31,661 nucleotides of DNA from assembly GCA_017620455.1 (NCBI GenBank), contig JAFZQK010000023.1, positions 1 through 31,661 on the forward strand, given 5' to 3'. Made by a program: the position numbers and the translations under genes. Positions 3,127 through 30,419 of the stretch are shown piece after piece. Below the pieces are notes generated by a model, which ran no database searches, was not told the DNA's origin, and saw only the letters and a program-made list of their open reading frames with translations. Position 1 is the stretch's first letter, and the number at the start of each line of letters is the position of its first letter. The stretch is from Clostridia bacterium (lineage in GTDB: Bacteria > Bacillota_A > Clostridia > Christensenellales > Aristaeellaceae).

Positions 3127-3142
3127 TGTTTCACGTGAAACA
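3127..3142. other. parS: parS site 1 (ParB/Spo0J binding)
   Basis: TGTTTCACGTGAAACA is a perfect 16-bp palindrome and an exact match to the Bacillus-type parS consensus (TGTTNCACGTGAAACA). It lies between the DUF1292 stop and the terminator, and its last five bases form the foot of the terminator stem. ParB spreads from such sites and loads SMC near the origin, which fits the oriC found about 8 kb away. Confidence 0.9.
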
Positions 3143-5854: not shown

Positions 5855-5870
5855 TGTTTCACGTGAAACA
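5855..5870. other. parS: parS site 2 (ParB/Spo0J binding)
   Basis: A second exact TGTTTCACGTGAAACA palindrome lies in the intergenic region between the divergent exporter and recF genes, 2.7 kb from site 1. Two identical 16-mers matching the known consensus make chance very unlikely. Confidence 0.92.
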
Positions 5871-5891: not shown

Positions 5892-5920
5892 TTGACATTC
5901 CGCCCCGGTTGTGGCAAACT
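5892..5920 (+). promoter_or_regulatory. Possible recF promoter
   Basis: A perfect TTGACA stands at 5892-5897. The best -10 at the right spacing, CAAACT (5915-5920), matches only three of six positions, so the call is weak. Confidence 0.3.
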
Positions 5921-5950
5921 GGAGCCAGAGAAAGGAAAGGGGGCGGGCCC

Positions 5951-7036
5951 ATGCGCATCACCGGGCTCCGGCTGCGGGATTTCCGCGGCTATCGGCAGCT
6001 GCTGCTTTCGCCGCCCCCCGGCGTCACCGTGCTGGTGGGCGAAAACGGCGCGGGAAAAACCAACCTGCTGGAAGCAGTGCATCTGTGCTGCCTGGGCCGC
6101 AGCCACCGTACCGCCAACGATAAGGAAATGATCCGCCAGGGCCAGGAAACCGCCGCCGTGCAGCTCACCGTCAGCCGCACCGACGGCACCCACGACGTGG
6201 GCGTTCGCCTGTTTGAAAACGCCAAACGGCGCAAGCTCGTCTACGTCAACGGCAAAATCGCCCCGCGGATGGGCGAGCTGATGAGCCACGCCACCTGCGT
6301 CATCTTTTCCCCGGAGGACCTGGCCCTGGTAAAGGACGGGCCCCAGGCCCGCCGCCGGTTCCTGGATATGCTGCTTTCCCAGCAGCAGCGGGCGTATTTT
6401 TACGCCCTGCAAACGTATATGAGCGCCCTGAAGCAGCGCAACGCCCTGCTGAAAGGCGGGGATCTGCGCCAGCTGCCCGCCTGGGACGAGCAGCTCGCCG
6501 CCGCCGCCGCGCCCCTGGTGCGCCTGCGCCGGGACGTGTGCGAACGGCTGAACGAGCGGGCGCAGGTGCATTACCTGTACATCGGCGGCCGGGAGGAGGA
6601 GCGTTTCGCCATGCGCTACCGCGGGGCGCTCGCCGAATCCGCGGACCCCATGGAGGACATGCGCCGGGGCCTGGAAATCAGCCGGGACGAGGATCTGCGC
6701 AGGCAAAGCACCTGCTTCGGCCCCCACCGGGACGAAATCGAGCTGACCCTCTGCGGGCAGCTCATCCGCGCCTTCGGCTCCCAGGGCCAGATGCGCACCG
6801 CCGCCCTGTCCATGAAGCTGGCGTCCTTCGATCTCCTGGAGGACGCCCAGGGCGAGCCGCCGCTGCTGCTGCTGGACGACGTGCTCAGCGAACTGGACCC
6901 GGAGCGCCGCCGCCGCCTCATCGCCCGGATCGGCCGCGCCCAGGCGCTTTTGACCTGTACCGATCAGAACGATTTCATCGGCGCCCGCCCCGCCTGCGTG
7001 CTCCGGGTGCACGACGGCCAGGTGGAGGAAGCGTAA
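5951..7036 (+). CDS. recF: DNA replication and repair protein RecF
   Basis: The 361-residue ABC-type ATPase has Walker A GENGAGKTN at residues 30-38, the RecF signature FGSQGQMRTAALSMKLA in the C-terminal part, and Walker B LLLLDDVLSELD near residue 305. RecF with RecO and RecR loads RecA at gaps in single-stranded DNA. The start at 5951 follows a purine-rich site (AAGGAAAGGGGG) and gives the usual N-terminus MRITGLRLRDFRGY. In most Bacillota recF follows dnaN in a dnaA-dnaN-recF-gyrB operon. Here it stands alone on the opposite strand from dnaN, with the deacetylase and rubrerythrin genes between them, and has its own terminator. Confidence 0.96.
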   Translation: MRITGLRLRDFRGYRQLLLSPPPGVTVLVGENGAGKTNLLEAVHLCCLGRSHRTANDKEMIRQGQETAAVQLTVSRTDGTHDVGVRLFENAKRRKLVYVNGKIAPRMGELMSHATCVIFSPEDLALVKDGPQARRRFLDMLLSQQQRAYFYALQTYMSALKQRNALLKGGDLRQLPAWDEQLAAAAAPLVRLRRDVCERLNERAQVHYLYIGGREEERFAMRYRGALAESADPMEDMRRGLEISRDEDLRRQSTCFGPHRDEIELTLCGQLIRAFGSQGQMRTAALSMKLASFDLLEDAQGEPPLLLLDDVLSELDPERRRRLIARIGRAQALLTCTDQNDFIGARPACVLRVHDGQVEEA

Positions 7037-9488: not shown

Positions 9489-9696
9489 GCGCGCCTCCCC
9501 GGTGAGAGGCGCGCGGACCCACACCGGAGGCGACCCGAATGGGGCGCCGGAGGGCTCACAGGAGACATAGAACAGTGGCGCGCCTCCCCGGTGAGAGGCG
9601 CGCGGGCTCGTACCGGAGGCGACCCAAATGGGGCGCCGGAGGGCCGCCAAGAGACATAGAACAGTGGCGCGCCTCCCCGGTGAGAGGCGCGCGGAC
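9489..9696. repeat. Tandem repeat, 89-bp period, abutting the 3' end of dnaN
   Basis: Units start at 9489, 9578 and 9667; the last is cut after about 30 bp. Each begins with a hairpin, GCGCGCCTC, an 8-nt loop CCCGGTGA and GAGGCGCGC. It continues with a conserved body (ACCGGAGGCGACCC, AATGGGGCGCCGGAGGG) and ends with GACATAGAACAGTG. The final hairpin (9667-9692) ends 6 bp from the dnaN stop codon complement and may terminate dnaN. The period is not a multiple of three, so short open frames across it change frame in each unit and are not believed to be genes. Confidence 0.88.
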
Positions 9697-9698
9697 CT

Positions 9699-10820
9699 TC
9701 ACCTGTTGAATATCCGCACCGGCAGCACCAGAAAGGTGAATTCGTCGCCCTCCACCGGCTTGATCATGCAGGGAGACACGTTGCTGTTGAAGCACATGCG
9801 GATTCTGTCGTCGCCGATATTGTGGATGATATCGGTGAGATACCGGGAATTAAAGGCGATGGAAAGCTCGCTGCCTTCAAAGCCGATCTCCAATTCCTCA
9901 TGCACGTCGCCGCGCTCGGCGTTGGCGGTCATTTCCAGGCGGCCTTCTGGCAGCAGCTTCAGATAAATCAGGTTATTCTTGCCTTCCCGGGCCATCAGAG
10001 AGCAGCGGTCGATGGCGTCGGAGAAAGAATCCCTTTCCACCATGGCTTCAGTGGTCCAGGAGGAGGGCAGGATCTTCTGATAGTCGATAAATTCGCCGGT
10101 GAGCAGCGTGGCGTACACCTTCACGGTGCCGAATGCGTACATGATATGGGAGGAATTGAATACGATCTTCGCTTCGTCGTCGCTGTCCGGCAGCATTTTG
10201 CTCACTTCGCCCAGGATCTTTCCCGGCGCCACGGCGTGGATATGATCCTTATCGCCTCCGATGACGTTCTGCGCCTTGATCTTCTGCAGCGCCAGACGGA
10301 ACCCGTCCAGCCCCACCAGCAGCGTTTCATCGGCGTATACCTCCATCAGGATCCCCGTGAGGATCTTGCGGCTCTCATCCGTGGACACGGCGAAAATCAC
10401 CTTGCTCACCGCGTCCCGCAGCCGTTTGCAGGGCAGGATCACGCTGTATTCCCCGCTCACGTCCCGGATATCCGGGAATTCGTCCGCCATCATGCAGGCG
10501 ATGGACGTATTGCTGCCCCGGCTCCTGATCTGGGCGCGCATCCTTTCGTCCACCTGCACGTCCACTTCCCCCGCCGGCTGCTTGCGCATCATTTCCGCAA
10601 ACAGGCGCGCGGGCAGCAGCGCGCAGCCCTCTTCCTCCACCAGGGCGCTCACCTGGGCCTTGATGCTCATTTCCCCGTCCGTACAGGTAAGCTGCAGTCC
10701 GTCTTCCGTGGTTTCGATGAGCACGCCGTCGTACACCTGCTTGACGGGACGGGGGCTGATGGCCCGGGTGACCATGCCCAGCCCGTAATTGATTTCATCC
10801 GTCTGTACCCGAAAATGCAT
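9699..10820 (-). CDS. dnaN: DNA polymerase III beta subunit (sliding clamp)
   Basis: The 373-residue protein is a full-length DnaN, beginning MHFRVQTDEINYGLGMV and ending EFTFLVLPVRIFNR. It has three similar clamp domains of about 120 residues: VQVDERMRAQIRSRGSN in domain 1, the FAVSTDESRKILTGILMEV stretch at the start of domain 2, and the C-terminal PCMIKPVEGDEFTFLVLPVR segment lining the peptide-binding pocket. The ring-shaped dimer tethers polymerase to DNA. The start at 10820 gives the family N-terminus; the open frame further upstream enters the origin and was rejected. dnaN reads away from oriC. Neither dnaA nor recF adjoins it, which is unusual. Confidence 0.96.
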   Translation of the reverse strand: MHFRVQTDEINYGLGMVTRAISPRPVKQVYDGVLIETTEDGLQLTCTDGEMSIKAQVSALVEEEGCALLPARLFAEMMRKQPAGEVDVQVDERMRAQIRSRGSNTSIACMMADEFPDIRDVSGEYSVILPCKRLRDAVSKVIFAVSTDESRKILTGILMEVYADETLLVGLDGFRLALQKIKAQNVIGGDKDHIHAVAPGKILGEVSKMLPDSDDEAKIVFNSSHIMYAFGTVKVYATLLTGEFIDYQKILPSSWTTEAMVERDSFSDAIDRCSLMAREGKNNLIYLKLLPEGRLEMTANAERGDVHEELEIGFEGSELSIAFNSRYLTDIIHNIGDDRIRMCFNSNVSPCMIKPVEGDEFTFLVLPVRIFNR

Positions 10821-10870
10821 AAAATCGCCTCGCCTTCCGGGCGCGTCCGCGCCCATTCCTGTGGTAGCAG

Positions 10871-10898
10871 TAATTATAATCAATAGTAGTAGTAGTAG
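10871..10898. other. DnaA-trio element and A+T-rich unwinding stretch
   Basis: Five consecutive TAG triplets (10884-10898) on the plus strand correspond to the 3'-GAT-5' DnaA-trio that DnaA binds on single-stranded DNA. They are flanked by TAATTATAATCAA (10871-10883) and by GCCCC (10898-10902). The TATAAT on the minus strand at 10878-10873 might also serve as a dnaN -10. Confidence 0.85.
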
Positions 10899-10902
10899 CC
10901 CC

Positions 10903-10919
10903 TGTGGAAAAGTGGATAA
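10903..10919. other. Pair of DnaA boxes next to the DnaA-trio
   Basis: TGTGGAAAA (10903-10911) and AGTGGATAA (10911-10919) each match the reversed consensus TGTGGATAA at 8 of 9 positions and share one base. They sit 4-5 bp from the trio, the spacing expected of the boxes that load DnaA on the single strand. Confidence 0.8.
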
Positions 10920-11159
10920 ACGCGGCAAAGCCTGAAAACGGCGCCGTTTTCCGCGCAGAGAAAACTGCGAAAAAAAAAGGAAAAGGCGGGGAGAAAAAGG
11001 GGACGGACCCCTTTATGCGGTTTGCCGCCGCTTCATGCTCCCATATTTTCTCATATTTTCCGGAAAAAATCAAGGGGAAAGGCGCGGGGAGATCAGGCTG
11101 GAAAAAAGAAAAAGGAAAAAAATGGGGAGGTTTCCGCGCAGAGGACGGGAAAAAGGCGG

Positions 11160-11177
11160 TTTTCCACATCATCCACA
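11160..11177. other. Pair of abutting DnaA boxes
   Basis: TTTTCCACA (11160-11168) and TCATCCACA (11169-11177) stand head to tail without a gap, each with 8 of 9 matches to TTATCCACA. Confidence 0.7.
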
Positions 11178-11195
11178 AACGGGTTTTCCCGCCGG

Positions 11196-11204
11196 TGTGG
11201 AAAA
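11196..11204. other. DnaA box
   Basis: TGTGGAAAA, identical to the box at 10903 and opposite in orientation to the pair at 11160-11177. Confidence 0.65.
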
Positions 11205-11282
11205 CGGAAATCGGCGTGCCGGGCCGTTTTTCACGGAAACAGATACAGTATATGCCGCTGTTTTCACCCGTATGTCCCGGAT

Positions 11283-11291
11283 TTATCCACA
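11283..11291. other. DnaA box, perfect consensus
   Basis: TTATCCACA matches the consensus at all nine positions. It lies 16 bp upstream of the -35 of the rightward permease promoter, so DnaA could also influence that promoter. Confidence 0.8.
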
Positions 11292-11306
11292 ATTTACAAA
11301 TATTCA

Positions 11307-11336
11307 TAGACGAAAGGGAAAACAATATGTTATAAT
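11307..11336 (+). promoter_or_regulatory. Promoter of the AI-2E permease and zinc peptidase genes
   Basis: TAGACG (11307-11312), 18 nt, then a perfect TATAAT (11331-11336) with an extended TG motif at 11328-11329. Confidence 0.7.
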
Positions 11337-11384: not shown

Positions 11385-12581
11385 ATGGAACAGGAACAAA
11401 GGGATTCCGCGCTGCGCAAATGGTTCGGTGAGCGTAAGCCGGTGCGGCTCATGCTTCTGGCGGCGCTGCTGACGCTGTGCGTGATCCACGTGGACAAATT
11501 GATCCTGACCGTGCTTTTTCTCTGGAAAGTGGCCTCGCCCCTGATCGTGGGCGCGGCGATGGCATACATCCTGGAAATCGTGGTAAAACGGCTGGAAAAG
11601 GTGATTTTTCCGAACACCAAAAAAACGTGGCTGTCCAACGGCAGGCGGGTCCTGTGCATTTTTCTGGCGTTTGTGCTGATCCTGACCGTGGTGGTGTTCT
11701 TTTTCATCACGGTGCTGCCCGGATTGGGCGACGCCCTGGCCCTGCTGGCCAAGGAACTGCCCGTTTACTTTGCCCAGGCCAAGGAATGGGTGCTCAAAAC
11801 CTTTGCGGACGTGCCTTCCGTGGTGGAGTACGTCACGAACCTGAAGCTGGATTGGCCTTCCGTGCAGGAAAAGATCGTGAACTGGGCGGTGAACGGCCTG
11901 GGCGGCGGGGGACTTTTGTCCTCCACGGTCAGCGTGATCAGCGCCGTGACGGGCCGGGTGGCCAATTTCCTGATCTCCCTGATCTTCGCCATTTTCCTGC
12001 TGTGCGCCAAGAATACGCTGCAAAGGCAGTTCTCCCGGATCCTGCGCGCCTGTTTCCGCCCCCGGAAGCGGGTCATCGTCAGCCATGTGCTGGAAGCCCT
12101 GAACCGCTCCTTCTCCGGGTTCATCATCGGCCAGGTGATCAGCGGCATCATTCTGGGCTTTACCACCTGGATGGGCATGCGGATCTTCGGCATGCCCTAC
12201 GCCCTGATGGTGGGCGTCATCAGCGGCGTGACGGCGCTGATCCCCATCATCGGCGGATATATCGGGGCGGCTTTGGGCACATTCCTGGTGTTCACCGCCA
12301 ATCCGGGCATGGCGCTGTGGTTTTTGCTGTTCATCGTGACCTTGCAGACGGTGACGGGAAACCTGCTGTATCCCAAGCTGGTGGGCAGCTCCGTGGGCCT
12401 GCCCAGCCTGTGGGTATTGGCGGCGGTTTCCGTGGGCGGCGGCATCGGCGGCATCAGCGGCATGATCGCGGCCGTGCCGCTGACGGCCACCGGATATGCG
12501 CTGTTCCGGGAATGGGTGGCCAAGCGGGAAAAGGAAAACCCGGAAAGCGCCACCCCGTCCGTTTCCGAAGGAGGGAAATGA
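11385..12581 (+). CDS. AI-2E family transporter, second copy
   Basis: The 398-residue membrane protein has an N-terminal charged stretch, two or three helices (about residues 22-60 and 85-115), a soluble middle part (about 120-180), and a C-terminal membrane block. That block contains GVISGVTALIPIIGGYIGAALGTFLV, the IPxxG region typical of the AI-2E/UPF0118 family, and a further PKLVGSSVGLPSLWVLAAV segment. The substrate is unknown; members move autoinducer-2, Na+, Li+ or unknown solutes. The start has AAGGAG about 9 nt upstream and a good promoter inside the oriC region. It diverges from dnaN and occupies the place where dnaA usually stands. The zinc peptidase gene follows after 3 nt. Confidence 0.88.
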   Translation: MEQEQRDSALRKWFGERKPVRLMLLAALLTLCVIHVDKLILTVLFLWKVASPLIVGAAMAYILEIVVKRLEKVIFPNTKKTWLSNGRRVLCIFLAFVLILTVVVFFFITVLPGLGDALALLAKELPVYFAQAKEWVLKTFADVPSVVEYVTNLKLDWPSVQEKIVNWAVNGLGGGGLLSSTVSVISAVTGRVANFLISLIFAIFLLCAKNTLQRQFSRILRACFRPRKRVIVSHVLEALNRSFSGFIIGQVISGIILGFTTWMGMRIFGMPYALMVGVISGVTALIPIIGGYIGAALGTFLVFTANPGMALWFLLFIVTLQTVTGNLLYPKLVGSSVGLPSLWVLAAVSVGGGIGGISGMIAAVPLTATGYALFREWVAKREKENPESATPSVSEGGK

Positions 12582-16286: not shown

Positions 16287-17559
16287 AAACGCGATCCGGG
16301 TGGACGTATTGGTGATCGGCGCGGGCCCGGCGGGCCTGGCCGCCGCCATCGCCGCGAAAAAGCAGGGCGTTGACAGCCTGATCGTCCTGGAGCGGGAGGA
16401 CCGGCCCGGGGGCATCCTGCGCCAGTGCATCCACAACGGCTTCGGGCTGCACCGCTTCAAGGAGGAACTGACCGGCCCCGAGTACGCCCAGCGGGACATC
16501 GACGCCGCCCGGGAAATGAAGATCGACATCCGCACCGGGGTAACGGTGCTGTCCGTGAGCCGGGAAAAGCGGGTCACCGCCGTGAGCCGGGAAAACGGAT
16601 TGCAGGTGTTTCAGGCGAAGGCCGTGGTGCTGGCCATGGGCTGCCGGGAGCGGCCCCGGGGGGCGCTGGCCATCCCCGGCACCCGCTGCGCCGGCATTTA
16701 CAGCGCCGGCACCGCCCAGAAATTCGTGAACCTGGAAGGCTATATGCCCGGCCGCCGGGTGGTGATCCTGGGCAGCGGGGACATCGGCCTCATCATGGCT
16801 CGGCGCATGACGCTGCAGGGGGCGAAGGTGCTGGCCTGCGTGGAGCTCATGCCCTATTCCAGCGGCCTCAACCGCAATATCGTCCAGTGCCTGCAGGATT
16901 ACGGCATCCCCCTGTATCTGTCCCACACCGTCGTGGACATTCACGGGCGGGAGCGCCTCACCGGCGTCACCGTGGCGAAGGTGGACGAAAACCGGAAGCC
17001 CATTCCCGGCACCGAAATGGAATTTGACTGCGATACCCTGCTGCTTTCCGTGGGCCTGATCCCGGAAAACGAGCTGAGCGTCGGCGCGGGGGTGGAGCTT
17101 TCCCCCGTTACCAGCGGCGCCGTGGTCACAGACAGCCTGGAAACCAGCGTGCCGGGGATCTTCGCCTGCGGGAACGTGCTCCACGTCCACGATCTGGTGG
17201 ACCACGTGAGCAGCGAATCCTTCAGGGCCGGGGAGGCCGCCGCCCGCTATGCCATGGGCCTGCGCCGCACGGGGCGGGAAATCGCCGTCCGGGACGGGCG
17301 GGGCGTCCGGGGCACGGTGCCCCAGAAGATCGTGCTGGACGGGGAGAACGGGGAGGTCCGCCTCATGTTCCGGCCGGATCAGGTGTACCGGGATCATTAC
17401 CTCACCGTGTACGCCGACGGGAAGGCCGTTTCCTCCGTGAAAAAAATGATCCTCACGCCCGGGGAAATGGCGGTGCAGCCGCTGAGCGATCAGCTGCTTT
17501 CCGCCTGCGCCGGCGCCAGGGAGATCACCCTGGCCGTCACGGTAGATAAGGCGGTATGA
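16279..17559 (+). CDS. FAD/NAD(P)-dependent oxidoreductase, GlpB-partner type
   Basis: The 426-residue flavoprotein has two dinucleotide-binding motifs, GAGPAG at 14-19 for FAD and GSGDIG at 165-170 for NAD(P)H. A Cys at 50 lies in GGILRQCIHNGFG, a hallmark of the small class found beside GlpA-like enzymes, and SVPGIFACGNVLHVHDLVDHVS is the C-terminal FAD motif. Such proteins usually take electrons from the partner dehydrogenase and pass them to NAD(P) or a quinone route. The reading frame overlaps both neighbours (8 nt before, 4 nt after), which implies a stoichiometric complex. Its physiological acceptor is not visible from sequence. Confidence 0.87.
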   Translation: MNENAIRVDVLVIGAGPAGLAAAIAAKKQGVDSLIVLEREDRPGGILRQCIHNGFGLHRFKEELTGPEYAQRDIDAAREMKIDIRTGVTVLSVSREKRVTAVSRENGLQVFQAKAVVLAMGCRERPRGALAIPGTRCAGIYSAGTAQKFVNLEGYMPGRRVVILGSGDIGLIMARRMTLQGAKVLACVELMPYSSGLNRNIVQCLQDYGIPLYLSHTVVDIHGRERLTGVTVAKVDENRKPIPGTEMEFDCDTLLLSVGLIPENELSVGAGVELSPVTSGAVVTDSLETSVPGIFACGNVLHVHDLVDHVSSESFRAGEAAARYAMGLRRTGREIAVRDGRGVRGTVPQKIVLDGENGEVRLMFRPDQVYRDHYLTVYADGKAVSSVKKMILTPGEMAVQPLSDQLLSACAGAREITLAVTVDKAV

Positions 17560-19451
17560 GCGCGGAATTTTCCCGGATCACCGCCTGCGGGGAATGCTGC
17601 GACGGATGCGCGAAAAAGGCGGACGGGCGCTGCCCCGGCTGTATCGAGGCGGACGGGTACGTGCCCGAATGGAAGGAAAGCGGCCGGTGCCGGGTGCATG
17701 CCTGCGCCCGGAGCCACGGGGCGCAGTTCTGCGGCGTATGCCCGGCGTTTCCCTGCGGGGAAACAGAAAAACTGATCCATTGGAACAAAGGGATCATGGC
17801 GCGCATGGAACAGCTCCGCGCGCTGTATGCAGAAAGGATGGAAACCGTGCTGACACTGAACGAACAGGGCTTGCAGAACCGCGCGGCCTGGGAAAAGGCG
17901 GGCTACGCCCTGCCGGGCTACGACCGGGAAAAAATGCGGGAAAACACGAAAGCCCGCCCCGCCTGGGTGCATTTCGGCTGCGGGAATATTTTCCGGGCCT
18001 TCCAGTGCATGGCCATGCAGCGGCTGCTGAACGCGGGCAAGGCCGACACCGGCATCGTGGCGGTGGAGGGCTTCGATTACGAGATCGTGGAGAAGGGCTA
18101 CCGCCCCTGCGGGGATTATACCCTGCTGGTGACGCTGAAAGCGGACGGCACGGTGGAAAAGACCGTGGTGGGGTCCATCGCGGAATCTTTGATGCTGGAC
18201 AGCGGGAATGAACGGGAGTACGCCCGGCTCAGGGAAATTTTCCGCAGTCCCGCGCTGCAGATGGCGTCCTTCACCATCACCGAAAAGGGCTACAGCCTGG
18301 TGAACGCCGGGGGCGAAGCGCTGCCCGCCGTGGCGGCGGATTTTGCCGCCGGCCCGGAAAAGCCGCAGAGCTACATCGGCAAGGTGGCCTCCCTGCTTTA
18401 TGCCCGGTACCGGGCCGGGGCGCTGCCCATCGCCATGGTGAGCATGGACAACTGCTCCCACAACGGGGACAAGCTGCGCGCCGCGGTGACCGCCTTTGCG
18501 GACGCATGGGGCGACGCGGGGTTCCTTGCGTACCTGAAGGACGGGAAAAAGGTCTCCTTCCCCTGGACCATGATCGACAAGATCACCCCCCGGCCCGACG
18601 CGTCGGTGGAGGAAATGCTGAAAAAGGACGGCCTGACCGGGCTGGCGCCGGTGATCACCTCCAAGGGCACCTATATCGCGCCCTACGTCAACGCCGAGGA
18701 AAGCGAATACCTGGTGATCGAGGATGATTTCCCGGCCGGCCGCCCGGCCCTGGAGGCGGCGGGGATCATCTTTACCGACCGGGACACGGTCAACAGGGTG
18801 GAGCGGATGAAGGTGTGCACCTGCCTGAACCCGCTGCATACCGCCCTGGCGGTGTTCGGCTGCCTGCTGGGGTATACCCGCATTTCCGCGGAAATGAAGG
18901 ATGCGGATCTGGTGCGCCTGATCCGGCGGGTGGGCTACACGGAAGGCCTGCCCGTGGTGACGGATCCCGGGGTCATCGACCCGAAGGCCTTCATTGACAC
19001 GGTGGTGAACGTGCGGCTCCCGAATCCCTTCATGCCCGACGCCCCCCAGCGCATCGCCACCGATACCAGCCAGAAGCTGCCCATCCGCTATGGGGAGACC
19101 CTGAAAGCGTATCTGGCCTCCGATCGGCTGGACGCAAAGGATCTGCAGGCGATCCCCCTGGTGCTGGCCGGGTGGCTCCGGTATCTGCTGGCGGTGGACG
19201 ACGCGGGGAACGCTTTTGAGCTCAGCGGGGACCCCATGTTGCCGGCGCTGCTGCCGCTGATGGCGGCGTTCCGCCTGGGAGAAAAGCCGGCGCCGGAGCA
19301 GGTGAAAAATCATCTGGAAGGCTTGCTGCGGAACGAAAAGGTGTTCGGGGTGGATCTGATCCGGGCCGGGCTGGCCGACCGGGTGTGCGCCCTGTTTGCG
19401 GATATGCTGGAAGGAAAAGGCGCGGTGCGCGCCGCGCTGCGCAGGATTTGA
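17556..19451 (+). CDS. DUF3795 cysteine-rich module fused to mannitol dehydrogenase/fructuronate reductase family enzyme
   Basis: The 631-residue protein has two parts. Residues 1-80 hold eleven cysteines (11, 14, 15, 18, 26, 29, 45, 50, 59, 62, 67) in the DUF3795 pattern, including RCPGC, C-x4-C and FCGVC...FPC. From about residue 98 it is a polyol/uronate dehydrogenase: WVHFGCGNIFRAF (137-149) is the NAD-binding start, and KVCTCLNPLH is the family's Lys-x5-Asn-x2-His catalytic motif (K419, N425, H428). UxuB members reduce fructuronate to mannonate with NADH. The start ATG overlaps the previous stop, so the cysteine module is translated. An internal GTG at 17847 with AAAGG 9 nt upstream could also give the enzyme alone. 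Members of each family usually occur alone. Confidence 0.82.
   Translation: MSAEFSRITACGECCDGCAKKADGRCPGCIEADGYVPEWKESGRCRVHACARSHGAQFCGVCPAFPCGETEKLIHWNKGIMARMEQLRALYAERMETVLTLNEQGLQNRAAWEKAGYALPGYDREKMRENTKARPAWVHFGCGNIFRAFQCMAMQRLLNAGKADTGIVAVEGFDYEIVEKGYRPCGDYTLLVTLKADGTVEKTVVGSIAESLMLDSGNEREYARLREIFRSPALQMASFTITEKGYSLVNAGGEALPAVAADFAAGPEKPQSYIGKVASLLYARYRAGALPIAMVSMDNCSHNGDKLRAAVTAFADAWGDAGFLAYLKDGKKVSFPWTMIDKITPRPDASVEEMLKKDGLTGLAPVITSKGTYIAPYVNAEESEYLVIEDDFPAGRPALEAAGIIFTDRDTVNRVERMKVCTCLNPLHTALAVFGCLLGYTRISAEMKDADLVRLIRRVGYTEGLPVVTDPGVIDPKAFIDTVVNVRLPNPFMPDAPQRIATDTSQKLPIRYGETLKAYLASDRLDAKDLQAIPLVLAGWLRYLLAVDDAGNAFELSGDPMLPALLPLMAAFRLGEKPAPEQVKNHLEGLLRNEKVFGVDLIRAGLADRVCALFADMLEGKGAVRAALRRI
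17831..17849 (+). promoter_or_regulatory. Possible internal translation start for the dehydrogenase part
   Basis: AGAAAGG at 17831-17837 precedes a GTG at 17847 by 9 nt. This start would give MLTLNEQGLQNRAAW, the usual N-terminus of fructuronate reductases. It suggests that the cysteine module and the enzyme were once separate genes that became fused in frame, or that both long and short products are made. Confidence 0.4.
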
Positions 19452-28638: not shown

Positions 28639-29100
28639 TTACAGGGAGCGCAGTTCTGCCTCCACCGTCCCATCGGGACCGATGTGCAGAACGGCGTATT
28701 TGCCGCTCGCCGCTGCGCCGGGGTTCAGCAGCAGCACGCCCTGCCGCCATTGCATTTTCTGCACGTGGGTATGGCCGTAAAGGGCGGCGCGGCAGTTTTC
28801 CCGCAGCGCCAGGGAGAGCAGATCGTCCGTGCCGTCCTTCACGTGCTGGAAGTGCCCGTGGGTGAGCAGAAGCCGCGCGCCGGAAAGCCCGATGATGTTC
28901 AGCGTGTCGCTGCGGAACAGATCGCAGTTGCCCGCCACCTGGTACACCGGGGGCAGGGGCACGTCCAGGGCGCGCAGGTCGTCATACCCGTCCCCCAGAT
29001 GGATCAGGGCGTCCAGGGGGCCTTCCGCCTCCATCTTCATCAGAATGGTGTTCAGCCGCCCGGTGAAATAATGGGAATCGCTCAGCACGCCCACGCGCAT
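28639..29100 (-). CDS. YfcE/MJ0936-type metallophosphoesterase
   Basis: The 153-residue protein has the full set of calcineurin-like motifs: GVLSDSH (residues 4-10), HLGDG, GNCD (near 57), LTHGH and GHTH (near 108-111), which bind two metal ions. YfcE-type enzymes hydrolyse phosphodiesters; a physiological substrate is generally unknown. It often stands next to rph-rdgB genes in Bacillota, as here: its ATG overlaps the rdgB stop by one base (TGATG), so translation is coupled. Confidence 0.92.
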   Translation of the reverse strand: MRVGVLSDSHYFTGRLNTILMKMEAEGPLDALIHLGDGYDDLRALDVPLPPVYQVAGNCDLFRSDTLNIIGLSGARLLLTHGHFQHVKDGTDDLLSLALRENCRAALYGHTHVQKMQWRQGVLLLNPGAAASGKYAVLHIGPDGTVEAELRSL

Positions 29101-30419
29101 CAGGGCAGCTCCTCCAGATAGGGCAGCATCAGCCGCATGGCCTGGGCCCGGTGGCTGATGCGGTTCTTTTCTTCCTGGGCCATTTCGGCGAAGGTTTCGC
29201 CGCTGAGATATTCAAAATACGGGTCGTAGCCGAAGCCGCCGTTCCCCCGGGGGGCGAAGGTGATCACCCCGGGGCAGCTGCCCTGGACGGTGTGAGTTTC
29301 GCCGTTGGGCAGGCACAGGGCCATGGCGCAGACGAACTGGGCCGTGCGGTCCTCGGCGGGCACGTCGGCCATGTTTTCGATCAGCAGATCGTTGTTGGCC
29401 CTGTCGTCCCCGTGATGGCCGCAGTACCGGGCGGAATGCACCCCGGGGTCGCCGTCCAGGGCGTCCACGGAAAGGCCGCTGTCGTCCCCCAGGGCGCACA
29501 GCCCGGTGGCCTTCGCTACGGCCCGGGCTTTGATCAGGGCGTTTTCCTCGAAGGTGGCGCCGTTTTCGTCGATCTCGCCGGTGAAGCCCGCCTCCGCCAT
29601 GGAGATCACGTTCATCCTGTCGTCCACCATGTCGGAGATCTCCCGGATCTTGTGGGGGTTGTTGCTGGCGATCACCAGGGTGCGCCGGGGGGCGATCAGG
29701 GCGGCGCGGTCCCCCAGGGCCTCGCGCTGCTTTTCGTGCAGCTCCCGGACGCCCTTTTCCCCCAGGGCCAGGATCTGATTTAGCTCCGCCCGGGTGAAGG
29801 CCCGGCCTTCGCCGGTGCCCTGCAGCTCGATGAACGCGCCGTTCTCGTCCATCACGAAATTCATGTCCGTCTGGGCGGCGCTGTCTTCCAGGTAGCAAAG
29901 GTCCAGGCAGGGCACGTCCGAAACGATGCCGGCACTGACGGCGGCGATCTGGTGAACCACGGGGGATTCAGCCAGCTTTCCTTCCCGGATCAGCTTGCCG
30001 ACGGCGCAGCACAGGGCCACGAAGCCGCCGGTGATGGAGGCGGTGCGGGTGCCGCCGTCGGCCTCCAATACGTCGCAGTCCACGGTAATGGTGCGCTCGC
30101 CCAGGAAGCGGCGGTCCACCGCCTGGCGCAGCGCCCGGCCGATCAGCCGGCTGATCTCCACGCCCCGGCCGTCCTTTTTCAGGCCGTCCCTTTGCTTGCG
30201 GCGGCCGGTGGACGCGGGCAGCATGGCGTATTCCGCCGTGAGCCACCCCAGGCCTTTCCCCCGCAGGAAGGGGGGCACGCCCTCCTCCACCGAGGCGGTG
30301 CAGATGACCCGGGTGCCGCCGCAGCGGATCAGGCAGCTGCCGTCGGCGGTGGACACAAAATCGGGGATGATCTCGCAGGGGCGCAGTTCGTCCGGCATTC
30401 TCTGATCGGGGCGGGACAC
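29100..30419 (-). CDS. Bifunctional RNase PH / XTP-dITP pyrophosphatase (Rph-RdgB fusion)
   Basis: The 439-residue protein joins two enzymes. Residues 1-245 are RNase PH ([58 protein letters not shown]), the phosphorolytic 3' tRNA-trimming exonuclease. Residues about 248-439 are RdgB/HAM1 ([49 protein letters not shown]), which hydrolyses non-canonical XTP, dITP and ITP. Both parts look intact. Such fusions are known in some Firmicutes. GTG at 30419 was chosen because AAAGGA lies 9 nt upstream; the next in-frame ATG has no site. It is the first gene of the operon with metallophosphoesterase and GNAT genes. Confidence 0.95.

Follow-up and report, generated by a model that had tools for sequence, protein, structure and literature searches.

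A Bacillus-type unwinding module beside dnaN and apart from dnaA marks the probable replication origin in a clade of uncultured Clostridia

The order dnaA-dnaN is the usual one in Bacillota, and in Bacillus subtilis dnaA is replicated first, with the oriC1 boxes upstream of the gene and the oriC2 unwinding site downstream of it. Can such an origin stay at dnaN when the initiator gene is found elsewhere? This question is raised by the window analysed here, a whole stretch of 31,661 nucleotides (positions 1 to 31,661 of contig JAFZQK010000023.1, assembly GCA_017620455.1) from a Clostridia bacterium, in which a first-pass annotation had read a complete Bacillus-type oriC beside dnaN but without dnaA. 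From comparison of sequences we consider it very probable that the region 10839-11291 is the chromosome oriC, being the unwinding half of a Bacillus origin (oriC2, the ‘basal unwinding system’ or BUS) that was left at dnaN and is served by DnaA in trans. The motif anatomy, its conservation at dnaN, the lack of dnaA nearby, the parS sites and a GC skew switch in several relatives are all directly seen.

The 564-bp intergenic region between dnaN and a divergent AI-2E family transporter gene holds the candidate origin, and the features in and around it are as follows (window coordinates).

3127-3142: parS site, exact (0/100 shuffles).
5855-5870: parS site, exact, beside recF.
5909-7036 (+): gene that we take to be recF, of the classic dnaA-dnaN-recF cluster and kept near; SMC_N and AAA_23 domains, with tblastn matches near dnaN in relatives.
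9699-10820 (-): dnaN (sliding clamp), three DNA_pol3_beta domains, best E 2.7e-30.
10839-10854: GGGCGCG-TC-CGCGCCC, a perfect inverted repeat of the dnaN leader that lies between the origin and the start codon.
10861-10873 (-): second trio-like array, imperfect, reading TTACTGCTACCAC in the dnaN direction and flanking the A/T tract toward dnaN.
10871-10883: A+T tract of 13 bp with one C, its edge overlapping the second array.
10884-10898 (+): DnaA-trio array, five TAG.
10899-10902: G/C spacer CCCC.
10903-10911 (-): DnaA box TTTTCCACA, adjoining the trios.
10911-10919 (-): DnaA box TTATCCACT, overlapping the box at 10903-10911 by one base.
11160-11177 (+): distal DnaA boxes TTTTCCACA and TCATCCACA, starting at 11160 and 11169.
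11196-11204 (-): distal DnaA box TTTTCCACA, kept in RUG10690 and changed in mag378.
11283-11291 (+): distal DnaA box, perfect TTATCCACA, kept in all three aligned rows.
11385-12581 (+): AI-2E family transporter gene (PF01594, E=8.7e-49), divergent from dnaN, at the usual place of dnaA.

On the dnaN strand, starting from the AI-2E end, these elements run perfect box, three boxes, long spacer, module, G/C inverted repeat and dnaN start, and the module itself reads TTTATCCAC-TTTTCCACA-GGGG-CTACTACTACTACTA-TTGATTATAA-TTACTGCTACCAC. Most of the first-pass annotation stands at this level: the five TAG triplets, the GC clamp, the two DnaA boxes beside the trios (overlapping rather than abutting), the four further boxes at 11160-11291 and the divergent AI-2E permease gene in place of dnaA are all there. 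Its A+T stretch is present as well, but spans only 13 bp, and the leader around it is rich in G+C (56% over 10830-10883); the tract is likely part of the unwinding element. The dnaN leader is strongly conserved across the two nearest relatives aligned with the window, and both keep the TGTGGA cores of the distal boxes at 11160-11177. Between the two box clusters, the block 11042-11077 (CCCCTTGATTTTTTCCGGAAAATATGAGAAAATATG on the dnaN strand) is near-invariant across the three aligned rows while its flanks vary, and it is possibly a further protein site.

With at most one mismatch allowed, the window contains 12 DnaA boxes, whereas 100 shuffles average 2.65 and always stay below 12; six of the 12 lie within 10903-11291 (Poisson p 1.6e-12, calculated from the shuffle mean). 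The combined trio-box pattern TAGTAGTAGN{2,6}TGTGGA occurs once in the window and in 0/100 shuffles, and we reject a chance origin of the trio array. In terms of the BUS layout (PMC8287927), a DnaA box lies within 16 bp of at least three central-A trios (here five TAG at 4 bp from the box), and a tandem pair of boxes, set off from the trios by a short spacer, is found at 10899-10919. The Bacillus bipartite arrangement, with dnaA between two box clusters, is seen neither in the window nor in any of the relatives’ loci (0/80).

To what extent dnaA is separated from dnaN differs between genomes. A tblastn search with the DnaA of the nearest relative found no DnaA in the window. In this respect the initiator gene is gone as proposed, but it appears displaced rather than lost, given that the nearest relative itself (G001; 40% of sampled 31-mers in common, MAG 73% complete, DnaN 98% identical) has dnaA on a contig other than that of dnaN. 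Among 120 family genomes searched, 106 have a DnaN match and 103 of these also a DnaA match. The gene dnaA stands right before dnaN in 32 of the 103, of which 4 carry a second dnaN copy, perhaps contamination, and were left out of the linked class in later counts. The two genes are non-adjacent in 71/103, on different contigs in 67, which is weak evidence for any one genome (in G063 the two genes seem to be parted by a contig break), and apart on one contig in 4. In these four the distances are 38.8, 38.2, 47.0 (G026) and 1212 kb, the last being 1.21 Mb of the 3.26-Mb contig of G092. No DnaA was found in any of 80 named dnaN loci (up to 10 kb of flank; 70 of them carry at least 1.5 kb upstream of dnaN); chosen as the best of 217 matches, these loci are biased toward closer relatives of the window. 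With dnaA near dnaN in 0/80 loci, misassembly of one MAG is rejected as the cause of the separation. The nearest named relatives by DnaN, among these best 80 of 217 matches, are uncultured Clostridia MAGs, mostly from rumen or gut and some labelled Christensenellaceae.

The module itself, tandem boxes followed by a trio run, is found upstream of dnaN in 69/80 named loci, against 0/80 in antisense and 2/7612 pieces elsewhere (300 bp each, from the same loci), using a rule that was written after seeing the sequences. A first, stricter rule gives 46/80 loci, 0 in antisense, a shuffle mean of 0.4 and 37/7612 elsewhere; the module test is failed by 11/80 loci, and the module of G117 is weak. Taken with the 0/80 loci that carry dnaA, this supports the earlier proposal that oriC position and dnaA are uncoupled in the lineage. 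Among the other genomes, 36/50 separated and 9/20 linked ones pass the module rule (25/50 and 8/20 with the first rule). The module probably predates the dnaA-dnaN divorce, because it is also present between the two genes where they are still linked. In a pattern search, 16/120 genomes matched at one site each; except in G113 and G019, these sites are immediately upstream of dnaN (14/16). A reversed control pattern gave 8 matches in 7/120 genomes.

Box density follows the same picture. Over 800 bp upstream of dnaN, boxes average 5.0 in 72 regions (71 loci plus the window) versus 0.37 in 1272 other pieces, and at least four boxes are present in 56/72 versus 35/1272. The near cluster, which belongs to the module and lies within 250 bp of dnaN, has 142/160 boxes on the dnaN strand; in the far cluster, at 300-550 bp, 123/194 boxes are on the other strand.

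Beyond the A/T tract, a second CTA-like array (at least 9/12) is present in 31 of the 59 regions in which a first trio run could be defined (81 regions in total, 80 loci plus the window); mononucleotide shuffles average 0.8 and give 4 at most. In the window it matches CTACTACTACTA at 9/12. An arrangement in register with the first array is rejected, as the offsets modulo 3 divide 12, 11 and 8; one unbroken in-register filament is therefore not supported. Our guess is that the second array offers an extra foothold for DnaA, or on the opposite strand for the loading factor DnaD, once the tract is open.

The first-pass annotation proposed to look for a skew minimum at about 10.9 kb, and on this point the relatives give a mixed picture. 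Skew is weak in the window (-0.000 left and +0.033 right of the module), and a switch is found at or within 6 kb of dnaN in four relatives. In G026 dnaN lies at 63.6-64.7 kb, inside the 60-70 kb interval in which the sign changes; dnaA is at 16.6 kb, and the 5-60 kb bins are negative apart from one zero. Cumulative minima are at 94,401 in G015 (module 94,960-94,981), at 67,801 in G117 (dnaN start 67,315) and at 93,001 in G016, approximately 5 kb from the module at 87,650-87,670. For G092, we used 42 sampled 20-kb stretches of the 3.26-Mb contig and one contiguous 220-kb region. Skew starts slightly positive (to 0.1 Mb), is negative across 0.16-1.72 Mb apart from the stretches at 0.24 Mb (+0.021) and 1.02 Mb (+0.002), and stays positive in every stretch from 1.76 Mb on, which places dnaA (0.459 Mb) inside the negative arm. 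At 5-kb resolution the sign switches locally to positive at 1.670 Mb, at dnaN (1,671,079), followed by mixed bins, and the densest box cluster of the stretches examined is at 1,670,728; but the global minimum is at approximately 1.725 Mb, some 54 kb past dnaN, with strongly positive skew beyond. The dnaN contigs of G025 and G058 have no clear switch. In G001 the skew is -0.049 over 58.9 kb left of the module and +0.013 over only 4.1 kb right of it.

A further origin marker is parS, for which we used what we take to be the ParB-site consensus. The two window sites are 5.0 and 7.7 kb from the trios, close enough to count as nearby. Sites with at most two mismatches are present in 43/80 named loci, and with at most one mismatch in all 15 genomes searched. 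G092 has only two of the latter, 2.3 and 3.0 kb from the dnaN start. In the 11 searched genomes with dnaA and dnaN on different contigs, parS is on the dnaN contig in 7, on the dnaA contig in 0 and on a third contig only in 4; G015 has one of its four sites on the dnaN contig, and in G066 and G091, which have both genes on one contig, parS is on another. Overall parS tends to go with dnaN, even in G016, in which parAB adjoin dnaA.

Could the working origin instead be at dnaA, with boxes upstream of its promoter, and the dnaN module a relic? We examined the dnaA upstream regions of 30 of the 119 genomes with a match, and 26/30 have at least one box, often a pair approximately 100-130 bp from the start. 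In addition, parA and parB are beside dnaA in G001 (read from ORFs) and G016 (tblastn), and in G025 the skew goes from about 0 to -0.059 at dnaA. However, the stronger box and trio cluster at dnaA that would speak for this reading is hardly seen: 1/30 dnaA upstream regions passes the loose module test, probably by chance, since inspection of this region (G106) did not bring out a matching stretch. Moreover, no skew switch is seen at dnaA in G026, G092 or G058, in the last of which 19/20 bins are negative over the 100 kb around the gene, the 11 separate dnaA contigs are free of parS, and a relic would hardly retain boxes, spacer and trios in 69/80 loci. We therefore regard an origin at dnaA as highly improbable.

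It is also very unlikely that the module is a mere DnaA-controlled promoter region of dnaN and the AI-2E gene, with oriC elsewhere. One promoter-like site for the AI-2E gene is present at 11307-11336(+), against 0.7 in shuffles, dnaN is now in need of its own promoter, and the distance to the global skew minimum of G092 fits such a reading. Against it, trios with a G/C spacer are an unwinding layout and not a promoter layout, the skew minima of G015 and G117 are less than 1 kb from dnaN, and parS is nearby. Several origins, or an origin that moves between lineages and is marked by dnaN in some members only, could account for the missing switch in G025 and G058, for the dense box clusters that some relatives have 2.5-9.8 kb downstream of dnaN, and for G211, a genome from a different family whose dnaA and dnaN are 76 kb from each other, in which skew is negative in four of four sampled pieces on both sides of both genes. 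Yet the sampled stretches of G092 (42 plus the 220-kb region) and G026 (25) show essentially one change in each direction, and we give this possibility very little credence.

An origin at dnaN would work as follows. The gene dnaA would have moved away in an ancestor, and the unwinding half of the bipartite origin would have stayed at dnaN. By homology to B. subtilis, DnaA made elsewhere would bind the box pair 10903-10919, extend as an oligomer across the CCCC spacer to the TAG trios of a single strand, and unwind the A/T tract in the direction of dnaN. The distal boxes at 11160-11291 may form a second DnaA-binding cluster, probably a local stand-in for the boxes upstream of dnaA in B. subtilis, and ParB at the nearby parS sites would mark the region for segregation.

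The linkage of the two genes was followed on a DnaN tree of 71 rows (51 separated including the window, and 20 linked), which covers a chosen part of the genomes. Linked rows group together, with only G063 (contig edges) and G088 as separated rows among them, and three linkage changes suffice. Midpoint rooting nests the linked group within separated rows, and this root by itself does not show a single divorce. A single divorce requires a root within the linked group, which seems likely to us given that dnaA-dnaN linkage is the common order in Bacillota. For 102 genomes of the order outside the family, among the dnaN matches listed, dnaN is just behind dnaA in 56 and on a different contig in 29; 14 have another one-contig arrangement (8 within approximately 9 kb, 6 approximately 10-143 kb apart) and 3 have no clear dnaA. 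The divorce therefore seems recurrent in the order. No sampled member (1-5 each) of families f12, f13, f14, f18, f19, f26, f27, f29, f30 and f32 has dnaN just behind dnaA. In some of these order-level families, for example in G165, dnaA and dnaN are divergent and close together.

We lean, with modest confidence, toward a joint reading in which the bipartite origin was cut in the ancestor of a large Clostridia clade. The unwinding half would have remained at dnaN together with a further box cluster, mostly inverted, at a distance of 300-550 bp and a second trio array across the A/T tract, and dnaA with its own promoter boxes would lie up to 1.2 Mb away. Similar divorces would have happened several times in the order, so that tight coupling of dnaA dosage to the origin would be dispensable in Bacillota.

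In B. subtilis dnaN comes next after oriC2 in the same direction, as in the window, and the E. coli oriC sits away from dnaN. Unlike B. subtilis, the relatives of the window commonly carry a second trio-like array beyond the A/T tract. The BUS is described as tandem boxes, a G/C-rich gap of approximately 4 bp and at least three central-A trios (PMC8287927), and the window resembles B. subtilis oriC2/incC in its two adjacent boxes, G/C spacer of approximately 4 nt, central-A trinucleotides and A/T stretch (PMC8287927, PMC13220808). In the B. subtilis arrangement, box clusters flank dnaA, one on each side, and dnaA lies between oriC1 and oriC2 (PMC13220808), whereas in the window the AI-2E gene has that place and dnaA is elsewhere. 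Both box clusters are at dnaN here instead of on either side of dnaA, and most of the dnaA upstream regions examined keep boxes of their own. The E. coli oriC is likewise apart from dnaA and uses DnaA in trans, but has a 13-mer unwinding element and another box layout (PMC13220808). A parallel in position is Synechococcus elongatus PCC 7942, in which oriC is beside dnaN at the skew shift point and dnaA is 1.1 Mb away (PMC3480399, PMC7198777), and cyanobacterial origins are usually beside dnaN according to DoriC (PMC6323995). The likeness is an analogy only. Synechococcus elongatus is a cyanobacterium with 11 TTTTCCACA boxes, and the cited passages do not name a trio layout (PMC3480399, PMC7198777).

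The principle of a dnaN-side origin with distant dnaA is, on the cited passages, already known from Synechococcus elongatus. What is new is the Bacillota case, the two-cluster layout at dnaN and the second trio array behind the A/T tract; our literature search found no Bacillota case of a dnaN-side origin with the full Bacillus-type module, although one may exist. In this group of gut and rumen bacteria the start of chromosome copying appears to have stayed at dnaN, and the initiator gene, its promoter boxes and the unwinding site are naturally separated. Hence, the contribution of oriC1 proximity and of early dnaA doubling can be asked. For genome annotation, tools that place the origin at dnaA can miss it by more than one third of the chromosome length (for G092, 1.21 out of 3.26 Mb).

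Some minor observations concern the surroundings. Clusters of at least four boxes within 800 bp occur away from the origin in 26/80 loci, 25 of them downstream of dnaN at 2.5-9.8 kb. Examples, measured from the dnaN start, are L145 (+8.6 kb, up to 10 boxes within approximately 150 bp) and L111 (+4.8 and +6.1 kb), with others in L114, L118, L131 and L147. Some lie inside a long helicase-like ORF, which presumably resembles addA, and the clusters resemble DnaA-titrating clusters. In the window, a short repeat at 9600-9697, past the dnaN stop, has 10 further matches in G001. The ORF 17556-19451 joins a weak DUF3795 match (below the cut-off) to a mannitol dehydrogenase, and the ORF 29100-30419 is a fusion of RNase PH and Ham1.
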